From the NCBI GenBank assembly GCA_016235675.1, contig JACRJN010000092.1, positions 1 to 36,347 on the forward strand: a DNA stretch of 36,347 nt, read 5' to 3'. This DNA comes from Candidatus Schekmanbacteria bacterium. GTDB taxonomy: Bacteria > SZUA-182. The translations under genes were made by a program, and so were the position numbers. Each line of letters starts with the position of its first letter. The first letter of the stretch is position 1. Under the pieces are notes generated by a model that had not been told where the DNA came from, ran no database searches, and saw only the letters and a list, made by a program, of their open reading frames with translations. Positions 5,101 to 21,938 of this stretch are shown here, piece by piece.

Positions 5101-8100
5101 ACGGTTTCAATCAGGGGCTGTTCGGCTCAGGCAAGAGTTATTCCCTGCTTTTGCAATCCCGCGATTATGACGACAATATCTTTACCGTAAGCAGCAGCTT
5201 CACTACGGTAGCCGATGTAGTATTGCCCCAAGATGTAAGCTATTTGCGGGCGGAAACCAAAGGCACCAACAGTATCAGGTTGAGTTGGATTCCCAGCGAA
5301 AATATAGATTGCGACATTGCCGGTTTCCCCTACACTCTTTATATTGACAGCGGCAGCGGCTATGATGCGGGACGGACGTTAAACGGTCTGGCTTCCGGCG
5401 AGGGTTCTTATACGGTGGGTAATCTGATGGAAGGGGCTTATAACTTTAAGATCACAGTTAAAGACACTGCCGGGAACGAAAGCGCCGGTGCGGAATTAAA
5501 GAATGTCTATCTGGCGACCAGCTCCGATTTTGCTGATGATTTCAACGGCTTCTACGATGATTTTGCCAGCGATTTGAGTAAATGGGATAGTCCGGGAGCG
5601 GATTGGTCGATAGCGGGCGGGGAATTACAGTACAGCGGGGCCAGCGGGCAAACCAGCGAGTTGATTACGAGCAATCTAGAGCGCGGCGATTATAACTTCC
5701 AGGGGAAGATCAAAATTGCCGGTGGGAATGCCGGTTGGCTGCTTTTGCGCAAAACTGTCGGCAGTCAGACGGCGGAGAGCGGTTATTTGGTACGGATCGG
5801 ATTAGGGAACACGGACAATGTGGGGATTTATGAATTGAGCGTAACCGGGATGAAAACGCTGGAGGTGGGGAGTACCGGCAGCACAATCGGCACAATCAGC
5901 ACCGGTACCTGGTATAACTTCAAAGTCAAAATCGTGAGCGGGGTAATCAAGTTTTATCTGGGGATTACTCCCAATCCGGCCGATATTTTACAGGTGCTGG
6001 CCATTGATCCTGACAATACTTATTGGGCCGGTCAAATCGGTCTGTATCAACCGGCGGGCGGCGGCAGTGTGCTTTATGATGATCTGGAGGTGGATTATAC
6101 CTCAGGCAGCAGCATTTATCGCTACACCTCAAGCAGTAGCGGTTATCAGCATATCGCGGGCAACGCCCCGGCGGATTTGACCAAAAATGTTTTGCAATTC
6201 AACGGCGGCGCCGATACCGAGTTATTGATCGGGCCCTTAGCTTTGGCGGACAACTATCTGTACAAAATAAAATTTAACATAGCAACCGGGAGCGCCGGAA
6301 TCATAGTAAACAAAGCCAATGATACGGCAGTAAAAAGCAGCGGGTATTTAATTCAGGTAAATCCAGGCGTTAGTGATAATGTCGAATTTTACGCCTTGCC
6401 TGCTGCCACTCCTCATAAAACCGGCAGTTATTCTATCAGTACCGGCCAGGATTATGAGATGTGGCTGATCAAACGCGACAGCGGTTATGAAGTGGATATG
6501 TACAACGGTTCCCCCACCCTGATTTTAACCGCCAACGATGTAGGTAATTACGCGGCAAACAATGCTGCCGGGATTTATACGGAGGCGTCCAGTCAGGTAA
6601 CCTATGACGATATCGCGATCAGCAGGCAGTTGAGCGACATCGGTCAGGATACCTTCATAACCTCGAATTACACCTACAGCCAGATACAAAGCGCCATCGA
6701 TAACGCCAACACCGGCGACAGCGTTATTTTCTCCACCGGCACCTATGCTTTGAGCGGCAACACCTTAAAAATGAAGAGCGGTGTTAACCTGAAGGCACAA
6801 ACTATCGGGGCCTGCGGGGCAAAAACCATAACGGTTACTGGCAGCGGAACATTGATCCAGGCGGCTAATGCTGCCTCTATCGAGGGTTTTAAGCTAAAAG
6901 GCAATACGATTAATGTGGGGATTTTGGTGCGTGATGTGGCCCCCGCGACTATTGCCGACAATGAAATCGTCAGTTGTTATGACGCCATCCGGGTGGGCGG
7001 CGGGGCTTCCGGGGATGTTATTTCCGCTCCCGATATACAGAATAACTGCATCTACGGCAACAGCAATAACGGTATTTCCAACTCCTTTGAATCCATGGCG
7101 GTTATTCGCAGCAATGATATTTATAATAATGCCAATAACGGAATCGGCATCAACGGGCAGGCCGCACCGCAAATTAGAGGCAACACGATTTACAATAACC
7201 AGATTGGTATCGGCAACCGCGGGCAGAGTTACGCTACTATCGAGCAGAATAATTGGATTTACAGCAATTCCAATCAGGGTATCGGCATTCGGGATGAAGC
7301 CCATCCGTTCATTCGCAATAACCGCATTTATCGTAATTTTACCGACGGCATTGGGGTAGGGTGTCCGCCCAGCGATCCCAATTGCCTTTCTACGGCTAAC
7401 CCGCTCATCGATAACAATATTATCTATTCCAACTTTGAAAGCGGCATTGCCCTGCGTTCCCAGGTTAGGCCCCAGAGTATTGCCGGTAACGAAATTTATA
7501 ACCATATTTATTCGTGTGCCGGGGCTAATTGCGAAGACTCAGACCATTCCTTCGGTGCCGGGATTCGCTTTTTCGACGACGTTAACCCGTATCTGGGACA
7601 AAATAACCTGCATGACAACAGTTACGGTATTTCCTTTAGGGTAAATGCCAATAATTCCTTTACCCTGAACGGGTTATCCGTTACCCAAAACGGAATCGGT
7701 TTGCATATCGGCGGCGACAGCGCCATAACGGTGGAAAATTGCATCATTTACAGTAATTACAAATTGGGCATCGGTATGTACCATAACGCCCATCCCCTGG
7801 TGCGCAACAACCAAATCCGCTACAACGGGGACGCCGCCGGACGCGCTGGGGAATATTTAAAATATATGTCCGGGGCCGGAACCGGGGTGGGTGGCATCGG
7901 TTTGGCTCAGGAGACCTATCCGACCATCACCAATAACAACATCTGGGGAAACAAGGCCGCGATTTTGCTGGAAGACGACACCCTGGATACGCAAAGCGGT
8001 TTAGCTTTAGATGAGGTACGGTTAGGATCGCTGGCCTCAAGTGTGAAAGATGACTATAAGGATCGCAGCCTGTACTTATTTATAGCCGACGGCGGGGATC

Positions 8101-11100
8101 TGGGCTACAACGGCGGCGCCAGTCAGCAGGTGGTGTCTATTACCGCTTACAATGAATCTACCAAGGTGGCTAGCATTTCTCCGGCCTATACCAGCAGACC
8201 GGCTCAGGGCGAGCATTACCGCATCTTCCGGGAGAATTTCGGCATCGGTTTGCGCGGCTGCAAGCGTAATGACCAGTCAGCCTGTTCCGAGGCTGCCGAT
8301 TCGCCGGGGATACCCAAAATCTATAACAACCAAATCCATGACAATTTCCTGGGGGTGGCCATCGGCGGTCGGGATGATGTTAACGGCGCTCCCAATCCGG
8401 AGGTTTATAATAACACCATTACCAGCAACGGAGTCACCGGGTGTCCGGGTGATTTTGCTTATTGCGGCGGCGGTATCGGCAACCGCGCCCATTCATCCGC
8501 TAATCTCCATCACAATACCATCCGCAACAGCAATAACCTGAACAATTACGGCATCGGGGTGCGCGAGGCGGCCAGCCCCACTATTTTTGCCAATACCATT
8601 ACCAGCAACCGCATCGCGGTAAGCTTCTACAGCGCCAGCGGTGACATCACTATCACCAGCAACAGTCTTATTAATAACGGGGTATATGTTCCCGGACGGA
8701 TTCGCGGCGGCGGCATCGGATTATATGAATTTGCCGGTAACCTTACTATCGACAATAATGTTATCGCTTCCAATCATGGCAGCGGGCCGGGGGCGGGCGG
8801 CATCGGTATTCGTCAACTGAACGGCGGCACCATCAACATCGGCACCACCTACGGTAATACCTTCCGTTATAATATCGGCGGACAGGAGGCCGGAGAACTG
8901 CGCTGCGGCGGGATTGGCGGGCGTTATGATAAGCCGGCGGGCGGAACGGTGACAATCAGTAAAAATACCCTTTTTAACAATATAGCCGGCGGTATCGGCC
9001 TGGATGATTTTGAATATGCCACCTTTGTGGTCAGCGGAAATACTTCCCACCACAACGATAAAGGGATTCGCGTCCGTAACGTTGCTGATGTGACCATTAC
9101 CAACAACAGCATTTATTCCAACGGTGACGGCACCCAGGGCGATCCGGCTAACAACAAATTAGTGGATGCCGGTATTTCACTGCGCCGGGCACTTACCACT
9201 CCGGTCTTTCCGGCGATGGACATTACCATTACCAGCAATACCATCAAGGGTAATCACGGGGATGGGATAAGTTTAGCCGACTTCCAGACCGGGGATACCG
9301 TGACCATCCAGAAAAATAAAATCGGCGGGGATGTGGCCGGTGACGGAAATGATTACTGGGGTATCAATATCGGCATTTTCGATGAGACGGCCTTTACGGG
9401 AGCGGTTACTATCGGCAGCGCTGACCCAACTTTAGGCAATACAATAAAATATAACCGGCAGTCCGGGATGTCCATTTCCGATGTGAACGATACCGTAACC
9501 ATCAAAAACAACAACATTTCCTATAACGGCCAGGCTGACTTGGCCTTCCCGGACGGGACTCAGGACGCCTCCGGTATTCGCTCCCGGAACAGCACTTTCG
9601 GGGCGAATAAAATAGTTGATAATACTATCAGCTATAATCTTTATGCCGGGATCGCCTTTAAAAACAGCGATGGTTACATCAATTCAGGCAATGAGATATT
9701 TGAAAACGGTAACCTGTATGAGCTACTGCCGCTATACGGCAGGACGATCTGCCCCAATTGTGAACCGGCCGGGCCCGGCGGCGGGCCGGGGAGTCTGACC
9801 GGGGACGGCGGCATATCGGTCAGGGATTTAGCCTTGAATAAAGAGGTGCGGATTTATGACCCGTTGCGCACTGAGATTCATGACAATCATGTGGGGGATA
9901 TACGGGTCAAACCTGATAATCAAGGTAAAGTATATTTGAACGATGTAGAAGTGATACCGGTCAAAGTCGGTGGATTAATTACCGGGGTGGGGTTATTTTT
10001 TGATTGCTTTGAGGAAGCGGATGCCACTACCTCTATTGACGACGGTGGATGCAATGGTACGATCAGCGGTTATGGATATGGGGCAAAAGCAGGAGTAAAC
10101 AACAGCCTGGCTAATAATGATCGCTTTGGGATTGTGGTACGCGGGCCATATTCGCAAAATCTGATCATCGAAGGCAATATCATTGAAAACAATATGCTGA
10201 CCACTAACACCAATAATGTAATTTGTTCTATCGATCCTCCTGCTGATAAAGACCATATCGGCGGTGGGATTGCTTTGACCTGCGGGGCGCGCCCGATTAT
10301 CCGCAACAACAAGGTTCGCAAAAACGGTGCCGAACTCAGGCCGGAAGATAAGGGCGGCCATTCCGGGATTAATCTGTTGAATGCCGGCGCAACTCAGATT
10401 TACGACAATGAAATCTACAGCAACAAAAACGACGGTATCGGTTTGATTGACAGTCAAATTCTTTCCGCCCCTCAAATTGGTATCAAGACTCAGGCCGCTA
10501 ACAAGATTTACGGCAACGGACGCCGCGGCGTCGGGGTGTGGGGTGCAGGTTCCGTTAGCATCGCTAATAATCAGATTTATTCCAACACCGGCGGCGGTAT
10601 CGGCAGCCAGGGAACGGCGGGCATTACTATCGACTATAACCAGGTGCGCAATAACAAAGACACCGCTATCGGGATCAAGACCTTTACCGGCTCGGTAACC
10701 ATCAGCAACAATACCATTACCAGCAATGCCGGAGTAAACAGCCCCGGCGGTATTGGTGTTTCTGCCAGCGCCAACCCGATAATTACCATTTCCGATAACA
10801 CCACCAGAAACAATACCGGGATGACTCAGCAGAACGGGATCAGTATGGGCGGTTTCAACGGTTTGGCCAGCATTACGGTTGGGCCGGGCAACACGATAGA
10901 CGACGGGTTGCTTTTTTCCACCTCTCCCAACCAAAACCTGACCATTCGCTACAATACCCGTTTGGAGCAAATCGGGATTAAAGATTTTAAAGATACTGTC
11001 ATCACCAGCAATACCAGCATTACCGGTGGTATCGCCTGCAACGGGACGACCGGCAGTACGCTAACTGTTCGGAACAATTCCTCGATAACCGGGATTGCCC

Positions 11101-14100
11101 CGGATCGGTCCACTGTAGGGGCGCAAGGTACTATCACCATGACCGATCTGACCACGGCCACCATTACCAATAACACCACAATTGCCGGTTACGGTATGGC
11201 CATGACCAATTGTACTGATGTGTACATCACCAGCAATACTACCATCAGCGGCCAAGCCACCGGCGATGACGCTACCGGCGGCATAATTGCTAAAAATGTG
11301 GCCAATCTGAACATTCGCAACAATAACTCGATTGCCAACGGGATTGCTAACCGTGGAGAAGCGGGCAATAAGGATATGACCATTACCAATAACGCTCTGA
11401 TTGCCGGGAAAGCCAGCAGTTCGTTATATCCCGGTACGGAGGCATCCATCCTGGCCCTGACCTTGCGCAACCTGACTATCAACAAGAGTGGTAGCGGCAG
11501 TCAGCAGATAAAGGGCTACGGCATCGCCTTCAAGGATATGACGGGTACTGTGAACGTACAGGACAACAATTTGCTCAGCGGAAACGCACACACCGTGTAT
11601 ACTTCCTTAACCAACGATGGGGTGGTTTTGGGCTACACTGCTTCCGGGACAACCACCATCCGCAACAATACCATCAGCGTAACTGATACCGCCCTGATGA
11701 GCACCTCCAGCGGGATCGGGCTGCGGGATATTACCAGCGCAACAATCGCCCGCAACACCATCAAGGGCGTGACCGGTACTGCCGGCAGCGGTTATTTCGG
11801 GATCGAACTGGACGGAAGCGCCACCACCAGCGCCACCATTACTACCAACACGATTAAATACTTCAAGCGCAGCGGTTTGCGCGCCAAACAATATAGCGGA
11901 ACTAATATGTTGTACATCCGCGACAACACCATCAATAGCTGCGGTCTGTCCAATTACCGGGATGGGTCGGCTGTCCGCTATGCCTCCGGCGTTCAGTTGC
12001 AGGATAGCAAGATTGCCGCGGTAACCGGCAATACCCTTCAGCGCAACAAATATACCGGTATAGCACTGGACAATACCGATGGCACTGTCGGCCCCAGCAA
12101 TATTATTCGTTACAACGGGGGCAGCGTCTCTTGTGATGGCTTACAAGGCCCGGATTTGGGAGACGGCGGAGTAGCCATCAGAGATTTGGATGCCATTGAT
12201 ACCGTAATTGTTTCCAACAACACGATAACCGATAACTATATCGGTACAGTCTCCCGCAAGGATTGCGTTGGAACGGTGCGTTTGAACGGAACGGCCATAA
12301 GCTGCGGCCCCTTCGGCGCCGGTTATTGGGATGAGACGCAAACCAAGGTTTACGTCGATACCACCGGTGTCTACGTGAATAACGGAACGGTAACGAAGGT
12401 CAGAAATGATCAAATAGTGGATTGCACCGCCGATCCCAATATTCCCGACATCGTTTCCGGTGGCAGCGTTTGGGGGATTGCTGTTGTGGGCGGGGTGCAG
12501 AACGCGATAGTCCGCAACTGCAATATCCGGCAAAATATGACTGCGAGGAACACCTTCGGGCCGCAGGGGGTTTCCATCGGCGGCGGTATGCTAATCGGGC
12601 CGAACTGTTCGGCGACCATTTACAGCAATACCGTCTATAATAACGGCTTTGAACTGGCCAGCGGTTCGGCGGATAAGACCATTGACAGCAACACTGCGAC
12701 TGAATGGATCAATCACCCGAAAGATGATGTTGCTCCGCATTGGATTATCTATGATTTGGCCAGCGACAAGGCGGTAACCCAGGTGGAGATATTCACCTCT
12801 GGAATTGGTGGAGCCGGTACGCGTAATTGGGATGTTTACCTTACGACCCAGGCGGTTGGGGCGTTACGCGACGCCACGGTTTTGTCCGATACCTATAAGG
12901 TTATCAGCAATTGGGCGGTAGGCGATACCAGCAGCAACTATTGGGATTTGTCGCCCACCATCTCCGGCAAAACCGGGCGCTATCTGAGGATTTCCACTAA
13001 CGATGCAAGCGCCATTAAGAGCGGCCATCTCCTGGAAGTCCGTTATAAGACTACCGGCAGCTTTGTACGGCCTGTTTCCCCCAACGGCAACGGCGTTTTC
13101 TGGGCTTGCAGCGAGATCGAAAGCGGTAATTCCGGGATAAGCCTACGTTGTACCGCCCGCACCGAACTGCGCAACAACACCATTTACAGCAACTGGAATC
13201 ACGGTTTGGAAAGCCGCGGCTCGATTGTCAAGTTCGGCCCTGGCAACAAGGTTTACAATCAAAATAACAGTTGGGGCATAGGCGTGTCTGATAATACTAT
13301 ATTCAGCGCGGTAAATAATCAGATCTACAATAACGGCAAGGGCTTCGGCATGACCATGATTAGTGGCGATGTCCTGATTTACAGCAACACCATGTACGGC
13401 AACAAGGAATTCGGCGCGGTCGGTTTGGATCGGACCATCGGCAATGTGCGGATCAATGTGGGAAAGAATCAGGTTTACAGCCAGTTGAAAAACGCTCTCA
13501 GCTTTGAAATTAATGGTGCCCCGGATGTGTTGGATTTGAATATTTATTCCAACAATATTTACAGCAACACCCTTAACGGCATCCGTGCACGCGGTCTGGA
13601 TAAGGCTAATATCAGTATCCGCAATAATACCCTGAAAGCTAATACCCAATTCGGTATTCAGTTTGATGATTGCGGCAGTACCGGCGGAGGCGAATCCAAT
13701 ATCAGCATTACTAACAATCTTATCACCAGCAGTAAGGATGCGGCAATGAGGTTCGAAAGAACCGTGGCCAACGATGTTTACATCTATTCCAACATCCTCA
13801 GGTATAACAATACCACCTATGCCACAGGTACGGATGAATGGGGCGGGATCTGGTTCCAGGAGACCAATAATGTACGGATTACCAAGAATGATATTCTTTC
13901 TAATAACGGGATAGGGATTAAATTCCAGGATTCTACTAATATCTTTATCGGCTGGACCGGTTTTGATCCCTCTAATGCCAGTCCGCCCAAATATGCGTCA
14001 GCGGCCAGATCCGGTACAGGGGCGCAATGTGACGGTTATTATACCAATCTGATTAATACCGGTGTGATGAATAAGTGGGAGGATAGCGACCTGTGGGATA

Positions 14101-15116
14101 ACGTCAACCAGGTGCGGGCAGCCGGCAAAGATGGCAATATTATTAAGGGTAATAAGGGGTGGGGTGTTCAAATGTTGGCGGAAACAAAAAATATGACCGT
14201 CAATATGCAGGCCAATGTCATATACAATAACGGGTTAGATACGACAGGCATGATGGGTGGCGGAATCGGAATCCGGTCGCTGAACCCCTATGGGGTAACG
14301 GCAACCGTCTATGCTACTCGTATAGGTAATCATCCCTCTGGCGATGGCGTAATGACCGAAGGACATAATTCTGTTGTTTATGTGAAAAACACCCGGTCGA
14401 TAAACGGTGACAGCGTCCAGGCCAAATGCGGTGCTCACATAGAGGCTTTGGACGGTTGTCATGTCAATGATACGGTCAGAACAGACGCCCAGCCGTCCGG
14501 TACGGTTTGCGATAATGGATATAAAGTAGCTACCGCCTTGATTTATAACTATAACTACGTCGGTTGCGTCAACAGGTGCGCCGGTTCGTCCAACAAAACC
14601 GGCGAAAGTTATATCGAGATTTCCAAGAGAAATTGCATCGGCGGCCATGTCCCGGCTGACGGCCCGACGGATTACGACATTCATGATCACAATCGCTTTG
14701 AAGCCGGTTCGGTTTTGGAGTCCCATGAGGGCGCTTGTGTCCGAATCTGGGACGGCAACGAGTTTGTGGGCGGCGGAAGTTTCCGAAAGAATCATTCCAC
14801 CGGTTGCTTTAACTTCTATGGCTATGACAACCCCAGTTGTTCCGGCACTTCCAGCCCCAACAAGGTTTATAGCACCTCTGTAGGGATGAGAGGTGGGTTA
14901 TGGTGCGGAAACGAATTATACGGCACCACCCTGCAAAGCGGCGATGCTCCTGTACAGGCGACAAACAATAAGTGCATGTCCGGCAGTTGTTCGGTTTCCA
15001 CCGGTTACGAAGGCGGCATCTCCTGCAACTCTCCTGTCTCCGGCAACACCAATAACGGCGGTACCTGGAGCTGTGACAGTTATTCGCCCTGCGGCGGCAA
15101 CGGCACTTGCCAGTAA
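2154..15116 (+). CDS. Giant secreted right-handed parallel beta-helix mosaic protein
   Basis: The 4320-residue product starts with a signal peptide (about 1-27, ending STEA). Residues about 60-680, 1500-3495 and 3640-4225 are three long beta-helix blocks of short rungs rich in NN, SNT and GI motifs (NosD/PbH1 type), each suited to stack Asn ladders. The first two begin with an IQxAxD...GD pectate-lyase-like cap. Between blocks one and two lie a module of about 80 residues (689-768), two Ig-like domains of the SbsA/Big_5 kind (785-1021), an FN3-like domain (1023-1121) and two concanavalin-like beta-sandwich domains (1124-1317, 1322-1496). A second copy of the 80-residue module is at 1945-2027. 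A discoidin (F5/8 C)-like domain is at about 3499-3638. The last 95 residues are rich in Cys. I see no LPXTG, PEP-CTERM or autotransporter barrel. A surface or extracellular adhesin or glycan-binding role is inference, since catalytic residues of a polysaccharide lyase were not recognised. Confidence 0.9.
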   Translation: MRLKTLHFVHFFVALILLMLFINSTEAATRYVNGGCSLDGDGTSADCALTEGGAGARKTIQAAVDMAGGGDVVKVAAYSAYTVADTTTTTYYYENIIVTKEITLELYTGNGDVCTADCPATYKSNNPCLSDCKNWDIRPKHLPPASSKFLSSWIVINGDKNNDKKGDNGNATIAWSGGVGGTLRNFTVSGGYSSVSGGSGAGVLIGGEETSVAVSGLYVSNNDAGIAVRYGATPTITGCTISNNSRSGLVVRDGSAPIIGGVEDWNSLEANKIFANSQSMTGTECFAGGGYSECEQQRTEGCAAVTVMDSSSPKIWGNQIYSNKYTGIVSLGQSSPSIKTNIISKNGRTGLGMFSTGMSVEIIGNWIDDNERGIGIQSSGDPCNKIQIKNNDILNNDLSGLATCNAYSQIGGAAGEGNRIFNNDGYGMFISLDSQVQISNNNILNNTFSGIKLFKSEGTIEENLIADNGCAWATNNKCGALSSRVYGQIELDASVGERINHNIIVGGNYANGSFEGIGILAMESGVFRGVLAELREVKDNLIYRVGLGIKLDSNAGYGSDAAYRAGAVDRNLVMHWGSSSLDTDGTVDGYVLGAGNSPGENTYYYGQESGSFGAANYIFRDPDHETIAYSSGAVNPDFKLTFAADSPVYSLSDYCTAPPQDYLGAGRNFRFIEEERGATPLNPPTVPVLGRFDDQTGLGLNEVKLASYHLKANGYYNNMYLITYRNGAPATWSTITGYVKAGTIPNLATVSPAYTAQTHPVQNEQYIIVSGELGYRFTTQSLKNLTPAADAAAPVLTGLIPPDGAGGALCNQTIVMYLQDVGDGVDPNSVQVGLSGAGSGTCALGACAIDVGENSSYLKVILNPAPLLSANTEYTIIVSAEDRQTNNLYATGTFTTTTPCEGVDSDPTIENLKPASGANNVSVASTISFKVRDTGSGVNPDEIALAITDNGITTQVAPDKVALSDGNGSTPDYSVYYKPKSEDGFNQGLFGSGKSYSLLLQSRDYDDNIFTVSSSFTTVADVVLPQDVSYLRAETKGTNSIRLSWIPSENIDCDIAGFPYTLYIDSGSGYDAGRTLNGLASGEGSYTVGNLMEGAYNFKITVKDTAGNESAGAELKNVYLATSSDFADDFNGFYDDFASDLSKWDSPGADWSIAGGELQYSGASGQTSELITSNLERGDYNFQGKIKIAGGNAGWLLLRKTVGSQTAESGYLVRIGLGNTDNVGIYELSVTGMKTLEVGSTGSTIGTISTGTWYNFKVKIVSGVIKFYLGITPNPADILQVLAIDPDNTYWAGQIGLYQPAGGGSVLYDDLEVDYTSGSSIYRYTSSSSGYQHIAGNAPADLTKNVLQFNGGADTELLIGPLALADNYLYKIKFNIATGSAGIIVNKANDTAVKSSGYLIQVNPGVSDNVEFYALPAATPHKTGSYSISTGQDYEMWLIKRDSGYEVDMYNGSPTLILTANDVGNYAANNAAGIYTEASSQVTYDDIAISRQLSDIGQDTFITSNYTYSQIQSAIDNANTGDSVIFSTGTYALSGNTLKMKSGVNLKAQTIGACGAKTITVTGSGTLIQAANAASIEGFKLKGNTINVGILVRDVAPATIADNEIVSCYDAIRVGGGASGDVISAPDIQNNCIYGNSNNGISNSFESMAVIRSNDIYNNANNGIGINGQAAPQIRGNTIYNNQIGIGNRGQSYATIEQNNWIYSNSNQGIGIRDEAHPFIRNNRIYRNFTDGIGVGCPPSDPNCLSTANPLIDNNIIYSNFESGIALRSQVRPQSIAGNEIYNHIYSCAGANCEDSDHSFGAGIRFFDDVNPYLGQNNLHDNSYGISFRVNANNSFTLNGLSVTQNGIGLHIGGDSAITVENCIIYSNYKLGIGMYHNAHPLVRNNQIRYNGDAAGRAGEYLKYMSGAGTGVGGIGLAQETYPTITNNNIWGNKAAILLEDDTLDTQSGLALDEVRLGSLASSVKDDYKDRSLYLFIADGGDLGYNGGASQQVVSITAYNESTKVASISPAYTSRPAQGEHYRIFRENFGIGLRGCKRNDQSACSEAADSPGIPKIYNNQIHDNFLGVAIGGRDDVNGAPNPEVYNNTITSNGVTGCPGDFAYCGGGIGNRAHSSANLHHNTIRNSNNLNNYGIGVREAASPTIFANTITSNRIAVSFYSASGDITITSNSLINNGVYVPGRIRGGGIGLYEFAGNLTIDNNVIASNHGSGPGAGGIGIRQLNGGTINIGTTYGNTFRYNIGGQEAGELRCGGIGGRYDKPAGGTVTISKNTLFNNIAGGIGLDDFEYATFVVSGNTSHHNDKGIRVRNVADVTITNNSIYSNGDGTQGDPANNKLVDAGISLRRALTTPVFPAMDITITSNTIKGNHGDGISLADFQTGDTVTIQKNKIGGDVAGDGNDYWGINIGIFDETAFTGAVTIGSADPTLGNTIKYNRQSGMSISDVNDTVTIKNNNISYNGQADLAFPDGTQDASGIRSRNSTFGANKIVDNTISYNLYAGIAFKNSDGYINSGNEIFENGNLYELLPLYGRTICPNCEPAGPGGGPGSLTGDGGISVRDLALNKEVRIYDPLRTEIHDNHVGDIRVKPDNQGKVYLNDVEVIPVKVGGLITGVGLFFDCFEEADATTSIDDGGCNGTISGYGYGAKAGVNNSLANNDRFGIVVRGPYSQNLIIEGNIIENNMLTTNTNNVICSIDPPADKDHIGGGIALTCGARPIIRNNKVRKNGAELRPEDKGGHSGINLLNAGATQIYDNEIYSNKNDGIGLIDSQILSAPQIGIKTQAANKIYGNGRRGVGVWGAGSVSIANNQIYSNTGGGIGSQGTAGITIDYNQVRNNKDTAIGIKTFTGSVTISNNTITSNAGVNSPGGIGVSASANPIITISDNTTRNNTGMTQQNGISMGGFNGLASITVGPGNTIDDGLLFSTSPNQNLTIRYNTRLEQIGIKDFKDTVITSNTSITGGIACNGTTGSTLTVRNNSSITGIAPDRSTVGAQGTITMTDLTTATITNNTTIAGYGMAMTNCTDVYITSNTTISGQATGDDATGGIIAKNVANLNIRNNNSIANGIANRGEAGNKDMTITNNALIAGKASSSLYPGTEASILALTLRNLTINKSGSGSQQIKGYGIAFKDMTGTVNVQDNNLLSGNAHTVYTSLTNDGVVLGYTASGTTTIRNNTISVTDTALMSTSSGIGLRDITSATIARNTIKGVTGTAGSGYFGIELDGSATTSATITTNTIKYFKRSGLRAKQYSGTNMLYIRDNTINSCGLSNYRDGSAVRYASGVQLQDSKIAAVTGNTLQRNKYTGIALDNTDGTVGPSNIIRYNGGSVSCDGLQGPDLGDGGVAIRDLDAIDTVIVSNNTITDNYIGTVSRKDCVGTVRLNGTAISCGPFGAGYWDETQTKVYVDTTGVYVNNGTVTKVRNDQIVDCTADPNIPDIVSGGSVWGIAVVGGVQNAIVRNCNIRQNMTARNTFGPQGVSIGGGMLIGPNCSATIYSNTVYNNGFELASGSADKTIDSNTATEWINHPKDDVAPHWIIYDLASDKAVTQVEIFTSGIGGAGTRNWDVYLTTQAVGALRDATVLSDTYKVISNWAVGDTSSNYWDLSPTISGKTGRYLRISTNDASAIKSGHLLEVRYKTTGSFVRPVSPNGNGVFWACSEIESGNSGISLRCTARTELRNNTIYSNWNHGLESRGSIVKFGPGNKVYNQNNSWGIGVSDNTIFSAVNNQIYNNGKGFGMTMISGDVLIYSNTMYGNKEFGAVGLDRTIGNVRINVGKNQVYSQLKNALSFEINGAPDVLDLNIYSNNIYSNTLNGIRARGLDKANISIRNNTLKANTQFGIQFDDCGSTGGGESNISITNNLITSSKDAAMRFERTVANDVYIYSNILRYNNTTYATGTDEWGGIWFQETNNVRITKNDILSNNGIGIKFQDSTNIFIGWTGFDPSNASPPKYASAARSGTGAQCDGYYTNLINTGVMNKWEDSDLWDNVNQVRAAGKDGNIIKGNKGWGVQMLAETKNMTVNMQANVIYNNGLDTTGMMGGGIGIRSLNPYGVTATVYATRIGNHPSGDGVMTEGHNSVVYVKNTRSINGDSVQAKCGAHIEALDGCHVNDTVRTDAQPSGTVCDNGYKVATALIYNYNYVGCVNRCAGSSNKTGESYIEISKRNCIGGHVPADGPTDYDIHDHNRFEAGSVLESHEGACVRIWDGNEFVGGGSFRKNHSTGCFNFYGYDNPSCSGTSSPNKVYSTSVGMRGGLWCGNELYGTTLQSGDAPVQATNNKCMSGSCSVSTGYEGGISCNSPVSGNTNNGGTWSCDSYSPCGGNGTCQ

Positions 15117-15399: not shown

Positions 15400-16188
15400 C
15401 TAAATCACATACTGGTTGGCGTAGCCTTCGATAAAACTGCCTTCTACATAAGCTTTCGTCCTGGAATCTTTGGGCTTTTCAAAAAGTTCCCGGGCCGGGC
15501 CGTGTTCGATCACCTGTCCCAGGTAAATAAATACGATATAATCGGCTAAGCGTTTGGCCTGGCGCAGGAGATGGGTTACAATCACCATGGTGTATTTGCC
15601 CTTCAGTTCCATAAATCTTTGTTCAATCCGTTCGGCTGAAATCGGGTCAAGCGCCGATGTCGGCTCATCCCCTAAGATTACCTCCGGTTCTACCGCCAAC
15701 CCGCGCGCCAGACACAACCTTTGCTGCTGCCCGATGGATAGCCTGGACGCCGGTTGATGCAGGCGATCCTTAACCTCACTCCACAGGCTGGCTTCCTGTA
15801 AATAGCGCTCCACGATTTCATCTAAAACCCGCTTGTCTTTTATGCCGTGCAAGCGCGGGCCGTAAGCCACATTTTCATAAATCGACATGGGCAGGACGCA
15901 AGGCCGCTGGGAGAGCAGCCCCATCTTTTTGCGCAAATGGGTAACCTCCACTTTAGGATCGTAAATATCCTCCCCATCGACCAAAACCTTCCCGCTGATT
16001 TTGAAACCGTCCTGTAAATCCAAGAGGCGGTTAAAAGATTTTAAAAGCGTGGTTTTCCCACATCCGGAAGGGCCGATAATGGCGGTCAGTTTTTTGTTGG
16101 GGATGTCCAGATTGATGTTTTGCAAGGCGTGCTGCTTACCGTACCAAATATTCAAATTTTTTACACTGATATGACTTTGACCGCTCAT
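15400..16188 (-). CDS. pstB: Phosphate ABC transporter ATP-binding protein PstB (divergent)
   Basis: A 262-residue ABC ATPase that would power phosphate import through PstC-PstA at the inner face of the cytoplasmic membrane. Walker A GPSGCGKTT is at 39-47, a Q-loop SQRP near 93-96, the signature LSIGQ at 150-154, Walker B VILGDEP at 170-176, a D-loop SALD, and the switch His in VTHLLRQ at 206. Overall length and the PMSIYENVAYGPRLHG stretch are typical of PstB. The signature has Ile for the second-position Gly (usual LSGGQ), Gly replaces the common Met before DEP, and THLLRQA replaces the common THNMQQA, so it belongs to a divergent branch. It is the last gene of the pst run, 277 nt after pstA, with a nested hairpin in the gap. 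A weak AGAGGG site lies about 10 nt before the ATG. Confidence 0.9.
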   Translation of the reverse strand: MSGQSHISVKNLNIWYGKQHALQNINLDIPNKKLTAIIGPSGCGKTTLLKSFNRLLDLQDGFKISGKVLVDGEDIYDPKVEVTHLRKKMGLLSQRPCVLPMSIYENVAYGPRLHGIKDKRVLDEIVERYLQEASLWSEVKDRLHQPASRLSIGQQQRLCLARGLAVEPEVILGDEPTSALDPISAERIEQRFMELKGKYTMVIVTHLLRQAKRLADYIVFIYLGQVIEHGPARELFEKPKDSRTKAYVEGSFIEGYANQYVI

Positions 16189-16465: not shown

Positions 16466-17317
16466 CTAATCCCCCAAATCCCCGGTAAATCTCCTGGACA
16501 ACATTCTGGCAATGATGCTGATAATCAGAACAATAGCGGTCAAAACCAGTGCCGAGGCATAACCGCGCTCCTGTACCTCCGGGAAGGGCGTTCCCAGTTG
16601 ATAAAAAATCGCCAGGGGCAGCGTGGCTACCGGCCCGGTTAAAGAATACGGCAGGGAATCGGTGAATCCGGCGGTAAACAGAACCGCGGCGGCGTCTCCC
16701 ATGCCGCGGCCTAAGGCCAATAATATCGCGGTCAGCACCCCCGGCAGGGCTTGTTTGAAAATCACCTTACAGGCGGTCTCCAGCCGGGTTGCCCCTAACG
16801 ATAGCGATGCTTCCTGCAACTCATGCGGAATCATCTTCAGCACTTCATCGATGCTGCGGCACATGATCGGCAGTACCAAGAGGGTTGTTGCCACCATACC
16901 CGCCAGGAGGGAGGCGCGCCAGCCGAAAAATATCATCAGGGTAAAGCCGAAAGCCCCGTAAACAATGGAAGGGATTCCCCACAGCACATCTAAAACAAAG
17001 CGCACCCAAAAAGCGAAGCGGGAATTTCTCTTCAGGTAAATATTCAAATAAAGGGTCAGCGGCAAGCTTATCAGCAAGGCGATAAACGTCGCGCCTAAAC
17101 TCAAGACCAGGGAGCCGAGGATCGCGTTGAGGATGCCTCCCTCCTTGCCCATGTAATATCCGCCCTTGGGGGTTTGCACCAGCATCGACCAACTCAGGGC
17201 GGGAAAGCCTTTCACGATAATGGTCAGTAAGATGGAAATCAGGCTGCCCAAAACCGTCAGGGTGGAAAACAGCATCAAGGCTTTGAAAAAATACTCCTCT
17301 GTTTTTCGTTTATCCAT
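16466..17317 (-). CDS. pstA: Phosphate ABC transporter permease PstA
   Basis: A 283-residue inner-membrane permease forming the phosphate channel with PstC. About six hydrophobic helices are visible. LWGIPSIVYGAFG and the EAA coupling loop ELQEASLSLGATRLETACKV, which contacts PstB, are diagnostic of the PstA/PstC family. I start it at the ATG at 17317, which overlaps the pstC stop as TAATG and has AAAGGAG 9 nt upstream. Starts at 17323 and 17356 are also in frame, but the first sits too close to the Shine-Dalgarno and the second lies well inside pstC. The overlap implies translational coupling to pstC. Confidence 0.92.
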   Translation of the reverse strand: MDKRKTEEYFFKALMLFSTLTVLGSLISILLTIIVKGFPALSWSMLVQTPKGGYYMGKEGGILNAILGSLVLSLGATFIALLISLPLTLYLNIYLKRNSRFAFWVRFVLDVLWGIPSIVYGAFGFTLMIFFGWRASLLAGMVATTLLVLPIMCRSIDEVLKMIPHELQEASLSLGATRLETACKVIFKQALPGVLTAILLALGRGMGDAAAVLFTAGFTDSLPYSLTGPVATLPLAIFYQLGTPFPEVQERGYASALVLTAIVLIISIIARMLSRRFTGDLGD

Positions 17318-18240
17318 TAGCATCTGCTCCTTTCCAGGCGCAATAAAATTCCCCAACCGGCGACATTAAATAAGGTGGTTAGCAGCAATAAAATAAAGGC
17401 GGCCAATAGCACCGCCGAGTCATACAAGGGGATGGACATCATCTCGCCATAGGTGTTGGCGATTAAGGCCGGCAGCGGATAAGCCGGATCGAAAAAGGAC
17501 TTGGGCAGAGCGAAAAGGCTGCATCCGGCAACCATCAACACCGCTATCGTCTCGCCCAAGGCGCGGGAAAGCCCCAAAATCACGGCGGCGACCAGACCGG
17601 GATATACCTTGCGCAAAACGGCAAGCTTGGTGGTCTGCCATTTCGTCGCCCCCAGAGACAGGGAAGCCTCCCGGATTTCGGCAGGCACGGTATGCAAGAC
17701 CTCACAGACCACGGAAATAATGATCGGGAAAATCATCACCGCTAAAACGATGCCCCCGGTCAGGGCGCAGAAGCCGGTATAATTATCGGAACTAAAAGGC
17801 AGAAAGGGTAATTTTTCCGTAAAAAAGGGCATCATATAATCCCGCACCAATGGCACTATGGTAATTACCCCCCAAACCCCATGGATGACCGGGGAAATCC
17901 CCGCCAATAAATCGATTACCGGTTTGATCAGATGGCTTAATTTGCGCGGGGCATATTCCGCCAGATAAACCGCGGTCAAAATACTTAAGGGAACGGCGAT
18001 CACAATCGCGATTCCCGTCACCCAAATCGTTCCCAGAATAAAGCCGTCCAAGCCGAATTGCCCGCTGCCCGGATGCCAGGTGGAGTTCAGGAGCAACTCG
18101 CCCAGGCTTTTAGTCGCCAGAATCGGCTGCGCCCGCCGGTACAATCCCCAGGCAATCAGCAAAGCCAGATTCAGCACCAGCAGGCAGATGAGAAACATGC
18201 TCTTGTGGGCGATAGTATCTTTGATTTGCCTTGTGTTCAT
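17317..18240 (-). CDS. pstC: Phosphate ABC transporter permease PstC
   Basis: A 307-residue inner-membrane permease, partner of PstA. An N-terminal helix (about 14-33) is followed by the usual periplasmic stretch and five further helices. The LAGISPVIHGVWG segment and the EAA loop EIREASLSLGATKWQTTK match the family, and RALGETIAVLMVAG is the conserved helix. The ATG at 18240 overlaps the stop of the HPr-like gene as ATGA, with GGAG 5 nt upstream, so translation of the two is probably coupled. The gene order HPr-pstC-pstA-pstB is unusual because pstS normally precedes pstC directly. Confidence 0.93.
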   Translation of the reverse strand: MNTRQIKDTIAHKSMFLICLLVLNLALLIAWGLYRRAQPILATKSLGELLLNSTWHPGSGQFGLDGFILGTIWVTGIAIVIAVPLSILTAVYLAEYAPRKLSHLIKPVIDLLAGISPVIHGVWGVITIVPLVRDYMMPFFTEKLPFLPFSSDNYTGFCALTGGIVLAVMIFPIIISVVCEVLHTVPAEIREASLSLGATKWQTTKLAVLRKVYPGLVAAVILGLSRALGETIAVLMVAGCSLFALPKSFFDPAYPLPALIANTYGEMMSIPLYDSAVLLAAFILLLLTTLFNVAGWGILLRLERSRC

Positions 18241-18494
18241 ATTTTCTCCACAAATAATTTGCAGATATTTTCTATGACCTCTTTTTCATCCGGGCCGTCT
18301 GCAATAACTGCGATATTCACACCATTTGTAGCCTCTAAAGTTACCATCTCTAAAATCGAACAGGCATTAGCGAATTTACATTTATGGCAGAGATACGCCT
18401 TGGACTTATGTTTCCTGGCCAGTTCTGCAACTTTGACCGCTTCCCGCATATGCAAACCGTGCGGATCGGATACTGTTACTCGCTTGATTTCCAT
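18237..18494 (-). CDS. HPr-family phosphocarrier protein inside the pst operon
   Basis: An 85-residue cytoplasmic protein of HPr size. HPr relays phosphate from PEP and enzyme I via a phosphohistidine. Counting from the ATG at 18494, GLHMR places His at exactly 15 and Arg at 17. Ser lies at exactly 46 in NACSILEM, the position phosphorylated by HPr kinase in many bacteria. The C-terminal half (TNGVNIAVIADGPDE) matches the HPr strand and helix. Oddities are Glu at 18 instead of the usual Pro and a Cys cluster YLCHKCKFANAC (Cys36, 39, 45). GGGAGGG just upstream supports this start over an in-frame TTG at 18506. The stop overlaps the pstC start (ATGA). No enzyme I, enzyme II or HPr kinase lies in the window. 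A link to phosphate uptake is inferred from context only. Confidence 0.85.
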   Translation of the reverse strand: MEIKRVTVSDPHGLHMREAVKVAELARKHKSKAYLCHKCKFANACSILEMVTLEATNGVNIAVIADGPDEKEVIENICKLFVEKI

Positions 18495-18506
18495 AGTCCC
18501 TCCCAA

Positions 18507-18929
18507 AAAAATCCGTCAGTGTAGGGTGGGCTGTGCCCACCATCCTTCAGAAATAACCACAACTGTGCTGTGTTTCGGGAGGGACTCCCGAAACACATTT
18601 TCATGAGATTTCAACCTTGAAGTTACTTAGGGACTTAGAATATACAAATATACCGTTTTTAGGAGTAGGGACTTCAGTCCCGTTCCCCGCCTGTTCGCAT
18701 CGTGCGTCTGGACGGGGCTAAAGCCCCTACTCCAAATGACTGCGGTATTTTTACTTAGAAGCCTGCCGTTGATGTGGTGGTCATACCGGTAGCCAGGCAT
18801 CCTGCCTGTGTGTTACGGCACAGCATGGAAGCTTTGGCTTTAACCCACAACTTCCAGTGATTGCACCGTTTTTGTGTGGGCGTTGCCCACATCACAGGCA
18901 AGATGCCTGTGCTACCGGATATAGGTCGA
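18507..18929. repeat. Cluster of palindromic repeats between pstS and the HPr-like gene
   Basis: No gene was seen in these 423 nt. They hold GTAGGGTGGGCTGTGCCCACC near 18519-18540, a GTTTCGGGAGGGACTCCCGAAAC hairpin near 18577-18598, a GGAGTAGGG...CCCTACTCC hairpin at 18663-18733 with weak outer arms containing AATACCG, and a long inverted repeat. The last has arms TACCGGTAGCCAGGCAT (about 18785) and its complement (about 18900), with further small hairpins inside. Such repeats between pstS and the permease genes would let PstS be made in excess (inference from REP behaviour in other transport operons). Confidence 0.65.
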
Positions 18930-19865
18930 CTACCGCAATCCCTGCAACACCTTCTCCCGCTCAGCCTTCAGCACTGGCAGGCTGGCCGCCACATCATTCA
19001 CAATCTTTGTTCCGGCATCGGACAGGGCAAATTCGATAAACGCTTTTGTTAACCCCTGCGGTTTGCCTTTTACGAAAAAGTAATTCCTGCGGGTGGCCGG
19101 ATAACGCCCGCTTTCGATCGCCTTGACCGCCGCTTCTCTGGTGGTATAGACCTCATCGGCATCGGCTGCGCCGTTTTGATTGGAATCGATGGGAACCAAT
19201 TTAGCGCCGGGAACAACCTGCCCTTCACGGGTAAAGACATAACTGAAATTGGAGTAGCCGATACCGATGGGATCACGCCGTGTCGCTTCCAGCAATCCCG
19301 GATCGCCGTATACCCCGATGCCGCGCAAGTCCTCCTGTTTCTTGCCCATAAAAGCCGCCCAGGCCGCCGCCGCTCCGCAAGCATCCGAACGGGTATAGAC
19401 ATGAACAGGCCGGTTGAGCTTTTTCCCGGTCACATCATCCCAGGTTTTGATTGTCCCGCTAAGATATATACCCTTCCAGGTGTCTTTCTTCACCCCTTTG
19501 GTCAGAAGATCGGCCAAGGCCGGATTTTTATCGCTCACTACCGCATAAACCGCATCATGCAGAACATAAACCGGCACGATGCCCTGCTTAATCTCTGCCG
19601 GGTCCGGCTCACGGGAGACCATCCCAATATCCACCAGCCCGGCAATCGCGTCCGCCGCGCCCTTACCGGCTCCCCCGGCTGAAATATCTATCCGTACATT
19701 AGGATGCAGCTTTTGAAAAGCCTCACCCCAGGCCACCGCGGTAGGATAAATCGCCCAGGCGCCAGATATGGTCAATGTCCCTTCCAGTTTTTGCTGAGCG
19801 AACCCGGTATTAGACGAAAGCAAAACTCCCGTCAGCATCAAACCCGCAATCAATTTTCTTGTCAT
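18930..19865 (-). CDS. pstS: PstS-like periplasmic phosphate-binding protein (variant subfamily)
   Basis: A 311-residue periplasmic binding protein with a signal peptide (1-23, ending GFA) that would deliver anion to PstCA. The mature start TLTISGAWAIYPTAVAW and the SAGGAGKGAADAIAG and VDIGMVSRE stretches fit the PBP-like fold. The ligand loop is SDACGAA (160-166) where E. coli PstS has SDGSGTS, so side chains that contact phosphate there are replaced. A 12-residue EF-hand-like loop with Asp227, Asn229, Asn231, Asp235 and Glu238 is present. I recall these features as shared by a subfamily of PstS-like proteins rather than errors. Context (porin, PstCAB) argues for phosphate, but another oxyanion cannot be excluded. 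GGGAGG lies 4 nt before the ATG. Confidence 0.87.
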   Translation of the reverse strand: MTRKLIAGLMLTGVLLSSNTGFAQQKLEGTLTISGAWAIYPTAVAWGEAFQKLHPNVRIDISAGGAGKGAADAIAGLVDIGMVSREPDPAEIKQGIVPVYVLHDAVYAVVSDKNPALADLLTKGVKKDTWKGIYLSGTIKTWDDVTGKKLNRPVHVYTRSDACGAAAAWAAFMGKKQEDLRGIGVYGDPGLLEATRRDPIGIGYSNFSYVFTREGQVVPGAKLVPIDSNQNGAADADEVYTTREAAVKAIESGRYPATRRNYFFVKGKPQGLTKAFIEFALSDAGTKIVNDVAASLPVLKAEREKVLQGLR

Positions 19866-19876
19866 GTAACCTCCCT

Positions 19877-19995
19877 GTAGGGTGGGCTGTGCCCACCTTA
19901 TTTGAATTCAATTGATGTTTCGGCGTGAAACACGCCGAAACCGTAAAGGGGTAACGTTCCCCTTGATAGTTTCGGCGTGAGGACACGCCGAAACA
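19877..19995. repeat. Three palindromes between the porin gene and pstS
   Basis: GTAGGGTGGGCTGTGCCCACC (19877-19897) repeats the unit near 18519. Two GTTTCGGCGTG...CACGCCGAAAC hairpins follow, at about 19917-19941 and 19968-19995. No promoter or Pho box was recognised in this gap, so pstS is probably read from upstream of the porin. Confidence 0.65.
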
Positions 19996-20009
19996 CCCGT
20001 CGTGGGGGT

Positions 20010-21347
20010 TTAAAAAAGCAATTGGAATCTGCTGAGCACTAATTTTTCATCATTTCTATCTGCGGTGTTGACGTTGCCGCCTTCAAATAACGCCTGTCCA
20101 TAATTGAGCATAAACCGGATATTCTTCAGCGGATACCAAGTTACCCCTAAGGTATATTCAGTCACTTTATGCGCTGAGGTAGTTGCATCGGCATAAGTAG
20201 GAAAAACCTCCTGATCTATATTCAACCTGGCGAAACGTCCGGCGATTTCCCAGGCGCCCCAGGGGTTTTGCGGGGTGATCCCGCCTTTGAAGGCATTCTT
20301 TTCCCCGGTAAGAATGTAAGAAACAGTAACTTGCCAAGCGTCATTATTAATCCTGGCCTCTTTACCGTTTAAGCTGATTTCCTGGCTGGTGCTGGCATAT
20401 TCTCCCAGTACCCCCAACGAATTCCAGTAATAATAGGCTTGCGGCGATATACGATGCCGTCTCCCGTTTGCCGCCACTCCAGCACGATAACTGAAAAATT
20501 TTTCCTGGATTTGGGTCTTGAAGGATGCCGGCAAAGATGAAGTCGCATTTCCTTTAGAATCTCCAACGGTTGCCGAGACCCCGAATCCCAAGCCCTTCAA
20601 AGGCTCTATAGCGCTTTGACTGAAGGGCTGCATAAAAATTCGGCCATCGACATCTTTGCCGTTATTGCTGTCGCCATCCGAGTTGCCGTTATCCGGAGAA
20701 CCGTTAAAAACGCCTAGCGCATAACTTACAGTACCGCCCAACAAGTCGCCGTGTAATTGAACGCCTAAATCCCGGAAGGGAAGTAAGTTGACCACCAGAC
20801 TGCGCTCAACGAAATTACCGTCCGGATCGTTTTGGATGAACGTTAAACCTACCGGGGTGGTAAATCTACCCAATTTAAGTTTGGCCTCCGGGAAACAGGT
20901 TATATCCACATAGGCATCGAACAGTTCCGCTTTGGCCTGGCCGAATTCCTGCATCACCCGGAAATCGAAATAGCGGAAAAGCGTGCCCTCGAAAAAACCG
21001 CGGGCGCGGCGTAAAATAAATTGATCATATCCGGGCGAGCGATCATTGGTTTCTTTAAATACCCGCGCGTCCAGATTTACCAGCCCGCGAAACCTAAGCT
21101 GAAAATCCCCGTCCGCCGATTTGATGGAAAACCCCTCTTTGCCCGCACTAATTATCGGCGGTTGTGGTTCATCCTGTTTTTTAATCGCCATATCCGCCCG
21201 GAAACCTGCCGCATCTTCGTTGGTGACCACTTTCTTGTCAATGAGCAAATTCAGCAACCGATCCGTGTCGGACTCCGCCGCCTGCGCCAATGACGCCCCT
21301 AAAATCAATCCCCCTGCCAGCCAACCGGTTAAAACCCGCTTATCCAT
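20010..21347 (-). CDS. Phosphate-selective porin, OprO/OprP family
   Basis: A 445-residue outer-membrane porin that would admit phosphate or polyphosphate to the periplasm for PstS. A signal peptide is seen (1-23, ending AQA), then a short linker. The barrel begins at about residue 70 (FQLRFRGLVNLDARVF), with the family's conserved RRARGFFEGTLFRYFDFRV, LKLGRFTTPVGL and ERSLVVNLLPFRDLGVQLHG segments. The chain ends QLLF, and a C-terminal Phe is the usual barrel-assembly signal. AAAGGAG lies 5 nt before the ATG. It lies 83 nt downstream of the Rrf2-type regulator and 144 nt before pstS, all on the minus strand. Confidence 0.92.
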   Translation of the reverse strand: MDKRVLTGWLAGGLILGASLAQAAESDTDRLLNLLIDKKVVTNEDAAGFRADMAIKKQDEPQPPIISAGKEGFSIKSADGDFQLRFRGLVNLDARVFKETNDRSPGYDQFILRRARGFFEGTLFRYFDFRVMQEFGQAKAELFDAYVDITCFPEAKLKLGRFTTPVGLTFIQNDPDGNFVERSLVVNLLPFRDLGVQLHGDLLGGTVSYALGVFNGSPDNGNSDGDSNNGKDVDGRIFMQPFSQSAIEPLKGLGFGVSATVGDSKGNATSSLPASFKTQIQEKFFSYRAGVAANGRRHRISPQAYYYWNSLGVLGEYASTSQEISLNGKEARINNDAWQVTVSYILTGEKNAFKGGITPQNPWGAWEIAGRFARLNIDQEVFPTYADATTSAHKVTEYTLGVTWYPLKNIRFMLNYGQALFEGGNVNTADRNDEKLVLSRFQLLF

Positions 21348-21430: not shown

Positions 21431-21895
21431 TTAGATTTGGAACATCAAAATTTCATCTTTCTTGAAAATATCCCCTTTATTATGATCGCAAACATCGGCT
21501 AAGGTAATCCGGTCTAATATTTCCACGGTGACCTTTCTGACTTGATACATCACGTTATACAAGCCGCAGGATGCTTCCCGTTCGCAGGTAACATGAGCGG
21601 TTTTGCTAACGCAGCTTAAAGGCGCCAGCGGCCCGTCAAAAAGACGGATCACTTCCCCTAAGGTAATCTTGTGCGGAGGCCGATTCAAATAATATCCGCC
21701 GCCGATACCGCGTTTGCTTTGTAAATATCCGGCATTGCGCAGCATGAGCAGAATTTGCTCCAGGAATTTTCCCGGTATATTCTCTTGCTGAACAATTTCA
21801 TGGGTTTGCATCAATCCCTTGTTGCTGCTTTCATAATTCATGGCTAAAGCAATCAAGGCACGGATGGCATATTCCCCTTTTTTAGACAGCCTCAT
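21431..21895 (-). CDS. Rrf2-family transcriptional regulator with putative Fe-S cysteines
   Basis: A 154-residue winged-helix regulator of the Rrf2/IscR/NsrR type. The start MRLSKKGEYAIRALIALA is the classic family opening. IPGKFLEQILLMLRNAGYLQSKRGIGGGYYL is the recognition helix and wing. Cys95, Cys104 and Cys110 (CX8CX5C) lie where relatives bind an Fe-S cluster, with slightly wider first spacing than IscR. A longer in-frame reading to 22000 runs through the promoter and is rejected. AGGGG lies 9 nt before the ATG at 21895. Its position directly upstream of the porin on the same strand suggests it could control the phosphate cluster, or simply sit next to it. Confidence 0.88.
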   Translation of the reverse strand: MRLSKKGEYAIRALIALAMNYESSNKGLMQTHEIVQQENIPGKFLEQILLMLRNAGYLQSKRGIGGGYYLNRPPHKITLGEVIRLFDGPLAPLSCVSKTAHVTCEREASCGLYNVMYQVRKVTVEILDRITLADVCDHNKGDIFKKDEILMFQI

Positions 21896-21938
21896 CGGCT
21901 TTTCCCCTGTCCCCTTAAAGTCTATCAACTTAATATAC

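Follow-up and report, generated by a model that had tools for sequence, protein, structure and literature searches.

A second, cysteine-bearing HPr in a PstSCAB-type importer operon of Candidatus Schekmanbacteria: a possible link to sulfur nutrition

Why should an HPr-family phosphocarrier be encoded inside the operon of an ABC importer? The question is raised by a 36,347-nucleotide stretch of DNA from a Candidatus Schekmanbacteria bacterium (hereafter the window). A minus-strand operon in this stretch encodes, in order, an Rrf2-family regulator (21431..21895; PF02082, 122 bits), a Porin_O_P family outer-membrane porin (20010..21347; PF07396, 112 bits), a PBP_like_2 substrate-binding protein (18930..19865), the HPr (18237..18494), a PstC-type permease (17317..18240; TIGR02138, 255 bits, cutoff 196), a PstA-type permease (16466..17356; TIGR00974, 213.7 bits, cutoff 193) and a PstB-type ATPase (15400..16188; TIGR00972, 350.9 bits, cutoff 343). 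According to an earlier note on this DNA, the HPr could connect the uptake of phosphate with a PTS-like phosphorelay and might fill the role of PhoU. We favour a different reading, in which the protein is a specialised second HPr serving sulfur nutrition and not phosphate, and we put the probability of this reading as a whole just short of one half (about 0.48). One third of the window (2154-15116) is taken up by a single 4320-aa open reading frame full of NxIysNxxxGIxl-like repeats of a parallel beta-helix type.

The HPr gene runs on the minus strand from 18494 down to 18237 (85 codons), while the plus-strand reading of the same interval contains many stops. GGGAGGG, a Shine–Dalgarno-like element, lies just 5' of its ATG (18498..18504, minus strand), and its TGA overlaps the ATG of pstC in an ATGA (18237..18240, minus strand). 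The 85-residue translation, MEIKRVTVSDPHGLHMREAVKVAELARKHKSKAYLCHKCKFANACSILEMVTLEATNGVNIAVIADGPDEKEVIENICKLFVEKI, passes the cutoffs of both family models (PF00381, 73.3 bits, cutoff 23; TIGR01003, 64.2 bits, cutoff 47.9), and its AlphaFold2 model (mean pLDDT 95.0) has the HPr fold, an open-faced beta sandwich, with a TM score of 0.94 against E. coli HPr (1poh). The earlier description of an HPr-like gene coupled to pstC is borne out, as are the positions it gave for His15, Arg17, Glu18, Ser46 and Cys36/39/45. His15, the putative phosphorylation site (codon at 18450..18452, minus strand), and Arg17 are invariant in an alignment of 44 HPrs that includes the window protein. The cysteines form a triad, C36-x2-C39-x5-C45, within codons 36-46 (CHKCKFANACS, ending at Ser46; 18357..18389, minus strand), which is seen in the translation and the model and recurs in three other HPrs; we refer to HPrs with this triad as C3-HPrs. 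In the model, the triad lies beside Ser46, on the face that bears this serine: it occupies the beta2-beta3 hairpin and the stretch immediately preceding helix B. The protein is a rare HPr variant. Although the genome encodes an HPr kinase, the usual Ser46 context, KS[IL]xG, is altered by Cys45 and Glu49 in place of Lys45 and Gly49, so that it is doubtful from the residues whether Ser46 serves as an HPr-kinase site. This doubt counts against the sulfur reading.

The rest of the genome, a 2.98-Mb draft that is ~90% complete, bears directly on the phosphate proposal. Enzyme I, HPr kinase and phoU, for which the earlier note had suggested a search, are all present. Enzyme I lies on contig C116 (TIGR01417, 662 bits), and the HPr kinase gene is located behind rpoN and hpf and is followed by genes for mannose-type IIA and IIB. 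There is one other HPr gene, not far from truB, with ordinary, canonical residues. Contig C103 carries a complete pstS-pstC-pstA-pstB-phoU operon followed by phoB and phoR. PhoU is thus not missing, and the window operon is not the main phosphate system; the observation that no phoU is visible holds within the window but not for the genome. Outside these two pst operons, a PstC query detected no PstC/CysT/ModB-like permease in the genome. As a separate observation, the enzyme I gene on C116 shares its strand with aprAB, the genes for adenylylsulfate reductase, which start 371 bp downstream of it (L040:149-4495); this makes another PTS-sulfur neighbourhood in the genome.

What, then, might the importer carry? 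The window binding protein scores 121 bits against TIGR02136, far below the cutoff of 206.6, whereas the PstS of C103 reaches 281 bits. It belongs to a non-canonical PstS-like family with members in 14 of 386 genomes at E < 1e-30, its own genome included. The family alignment is marked by the motifs SGA[WF]A[LI]YP and TRSDxxGA (also given as TRSDxCGA) and by a DxNxNGxxDxxE insertion, none of which is found in the aligned C103 PstS. The insertion resembles an EF-hand or dockerin calcium loop. In three of the 13 relatives (G235, G137 and G077), the gene for the binding protein is immediately preceded by an orthologous, CymR-like Rrf2 gene, with products 50-61% identical to the window Rrf2. Two further relatives have sulfate-assimilation genes beside it: in G087, cysD, cysN and cysC come just before it in the same orientation, and in G070 it is accompanied by a sulfite/nitrite reductase-like gene, cysD and cysN. 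Neither the window operon nor the regions retrieved around the 13 relatives showed linkage to PhoU or phoBR. It counts against the sulfur reading that no sulfur gene adjoins in the window itself and that eight of the 13 relatives have neither Rrf2 nor sulfur genes nearby, although the contigs of several relatives end close by and absence of neighbours is accordingly weaker than presence.

Set against the PstSCAB phosphate importer, the window system is alike in that PstC, PstA and PstB pass the curated models, but differs in that its binding protein does not reach the PstS cutoff, phoU is lacking, an Rrf2 regulator is present and relatives lie beside cysDNC. Judged by these gene neighbourhoods, the importer is likely to be sulfur-linked, and its substrate is probably sulfate or a related sulfur oxyanion. 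If so, a family annotated as phosphate transporters would likely be of sulfate type. The regulator itself is matched best, among specific models, by CymR at 84 bits, below the cutoff of 195. Upstream of its gene lies TTGATAGACT (21917-21928, minus strand), and in G235 the interval from Rrf2 to the binding protein contains it again without change (L262:2749-2758). The element is a putative operator for Rrf2 and overlaps a sigma-70-like promoter, although the pattern is, within the window alone, no rarer than chance.

The idea that the HPr links the uptake of phosphate with a relay of PTS type and substitutes for PhoU can draw on the curated models passed by PstC, PstA and PstB, on the missing phoU of the operon and on the 'phosphate-selective' name of the porin family. 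We nevertheless regard it as very improbable: phosphate has its own pstSCAB-phoU-phoB-phoR cluster on C103, the binding protein scores too low for the PstS model, and it is Rrf2 and cys genes, not PhoU, that accompany its relatives. Neither phosphate import nor a PhoU-like role is therefore supported. What stands of the earlier idea is an HPr of the phosphorylatable type whose translation is coupled to that of an ABC importer, the genome also encoding enzyme I, HPr kinase and another HPr. An action of this HPr on the importer and a function of its cysteine cluster may hold as well, with sulfur in place of phosphate.

The cysteine triad offers a second, separate route to function. A search of 386 genomes with the window HPr returned one HPr, in G237, with the same C-x2-C-x5-C-S, and a two-sequence profile built from this pair returned two further triad HPrs, in G403 and G404. 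The three genomes belong to one phylum, of which 44 genomes were searched and which is not that of the window genome, and each also carries an ordinary HPr. With a four-sequence profile, the three outside members score 151-161 bits and all other HPrs in 384 genomes score 84.6 bits or less. Among 40 ordinary HPrs, cysteine is never found at position 39 or 45 and is found at position 36 in four. The cluster that the earlier note had singled out is thus a trait common to four HPrs from two phyla.

All three outside C3-HPrs are encoded within Rrf2-MetY-CysK clusters of cysteine biosynthesis. The order is Rrf2, an OscA-like DUF2292 protein, a DUF3034 outer-membrane-type protein, MetY, CysK or cystathionine beta-synthase, and then the C3-HPr; the OscA-like gene is present in the clusters of G403 and G404, and the Rrf2 of the G404 cluster scores 135 bits with the CymR model (cutoff 195). 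The window C3-HPr likewise lies in an operon headed by Rrf2, that of the importer. C3-HPrs are thus associated with sulfur, and in the window the C3-HPr is associated with an importer whose family occurs with sulfate genes. Each of these two observations draws on its own set of genomes and genes. That C3-HPrs are regulatory HPrs of sulfur loci is, in our estimate, an even proposition.

Some features of these clusters would also suit a thiol protein, in which phosphotransfer has been abandoned and the HPr fold serves to carry or sense a metal or persulfide/sulfur. The CxxC on a hairpin with a third cysteine is reminiscent of a metal knuckle, and the neighbours in the other phylum include Thi4 and MnmA (both in G237 and G404) as well as cysteine desulfurase-like and MoeB/ThiF-like proteins. 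However, His15 and Arg17 are conserved in all four triad HPrs, which would be unexpected had phosphotransfer been given up, and we hold this explanation to be improbable. A few details of the clusters may be recorded on their own account. In G403 and G404, the C3-HPr and the OscA-like DUF2292 protein both end in GGGI (L213:13337-13528 and L214:14645-14851), and a MoeB/ThiF-type E1 gene lies nearby in L213. GGGI as a sulfur-carrier tail was considered and rejected, as the window HPr ends in VEKI and the G237 HPr in GSGI.

How firmly does the window protein belong with the other three? In a tree from which long-branched rows were removed and in which the cysteine columns were kept, the four triad HPrs fall on one side with support of 97/90. 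Masking the cysteine columns leaves the group of the three outside members intact (96/96) but removes the window HPr from it and places that protein nearest to an ordinary HPr, which speaks against the sulfur reading. A test of a single clade on the masked columns gives a p-AU of 0.51, which neither rejects nor supports it. As the grouping is lost on masking, membership of the window HPr rests on the triad and its context and not on the remaining sequence. Its triad may possibly be convergent, or the protein may be only loosely related to the others.

Resemblance of the masked protein to ordinary HPrs also suits a more mundane account, namely that an extra HPr gene was inserted between pstS and pstC, probably by horizontal transfer via repeats, and acts as a generic PTS phosphocarrier or has no particular role. 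The earlier note had asked whether the HPr is fixed next to pstC, and it is not. In all 11 relatives in which both the binding protein and PstC are visible, among them two operons of the same class in G006 and G002, the two genes either overlap or are at most ~90 bp apart, and no HPr gene intervenes. This absence of HPr from all related transporter operons weighs against the sulfur reading as well. A scan of contigs for close relatives of the HPr returned ordinary HPrs only, at 40% identity or less and none near pst genes, and plasmid and phage collections yielded nothing useful.

The 435-bp gap between pstS and the HPr gene (18495..18929, minus strand) is filled with dispersed genomic palindromic repeats, detected as repeat matches and inverted repeats, which have 64 matches in the genome, the gap itself included. 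Palindromic repeats with dozens of copies across the genome also make up the intergenic region 19866-20009, and the palindrome GTGGGCACAGCCCACCCTACA is common to both gaps. GC content is 41.9% (GC3 0.43) in the HPr gene and 49-55% (GC3 0.59-0.67) in the four genes of the transporter. Since the Rrf2 gene of this operon has a rather low GC content too (0.446), codon composition was judged weak and set aside as proof of transfer. With that caveat, repeats and composition fit a lineage-specific insertion.

An incidental location would thus find favour in the related operons that lack HPr, the repeats upstream, the deviating composition and the canonical HPr elsewhere in the genome. It accords less well with the tight ATGA coupling to pstC, the intact catalytic residues and a rare cysteine triad shared with HPrs of sulfur operons, and we think it fairly unlikely.

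If the sulfur reading is followed, a mechanism can be outlined from the coupling to pstC, the intact His15 and Arg17, the enzyme I of the genome and the triad beside Ser46. Enzyme I would charge His15 of the C3-HPr from PEP, and the cysteine thiols might report the sulfur or redox state through metal binding, a disulfide or a persulfide. In the least certain step, the C3-HPr would bind the importer ATPase or the Rrf2 regulator and throttle uptake; the former is modelled on the action of P-Ser-HPr or EIIA-Glc on maltose ABC importers, the latter on that of HPr with CcpA. P-Ser-HPr has been described as binding and inhibiting the ATPases of ABC importers (PMC2860498), which makes direct contact between the C3-HPr and the importer plausible. 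Even so, direct gating of the window importer by the C3-HPr is a tentative proposal that we consider rather unlikely to be correct. A similarly low probability attaches to the broadest version, that an undescribed class of HPr, with a CxxCx5C thiol or metal site beside Ser46, joins PEP/PTS phosphorylation to sulfur or redox status, directly controls sulfur uptake and cysteine biosynthesis, and has here been captured by the operon of a PstSCAB-type sulfate importer. If right, the PTS and sulfur assimilation would be connected by a cysteine-bearing HPr dedicated to this purpose, and the energy state of the cell may be tied to its sulfur supply. In the part of the open literature covered, we found no description of such a connection or of a sulfate-type role for this importer family, and no precedent for an HPr associated with pst, PhoU, sulfur or cysteine motifs.

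Compared with known systems, the window protein shares with the HPr family (PF00381, TIGR01003; E. coli PtsH, B. subtilis HPr) its fold, length, His15, Arg17 and Ser46. It differs from ordinary members in Cys36/39/45, Glu18 and Glu49 and in being a second genomic copy within an anion-importer operon. Crh and NPr are likewise paralogous HPrs given to regulation and not to sugar transport, although the window HPr matches them only moderately in sequence. Crh lacks His15, NPr belongs to the rpoN locus of PTS-Ntr, and we know of no sulfur linkage for either. Inducer exclusion by P-Ser-HPr or EIIA-Glc (PMC2860498) provides the same proposed action, a PTS protein on an ABC ATPase; however, the known cases act in trans on sugar importers, whereas the window HPr is encoded inside an anion-importer operon. 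Finally, in the E. coli gene order cysZ-cysK-ptsH-ptsI-crr an HPr gene likewise stands beside genes for sulfate uptake and cysteine synthase, but its product, unlike the window HPr, is the general HPr of the sugar PTS and has no cysteine triad.
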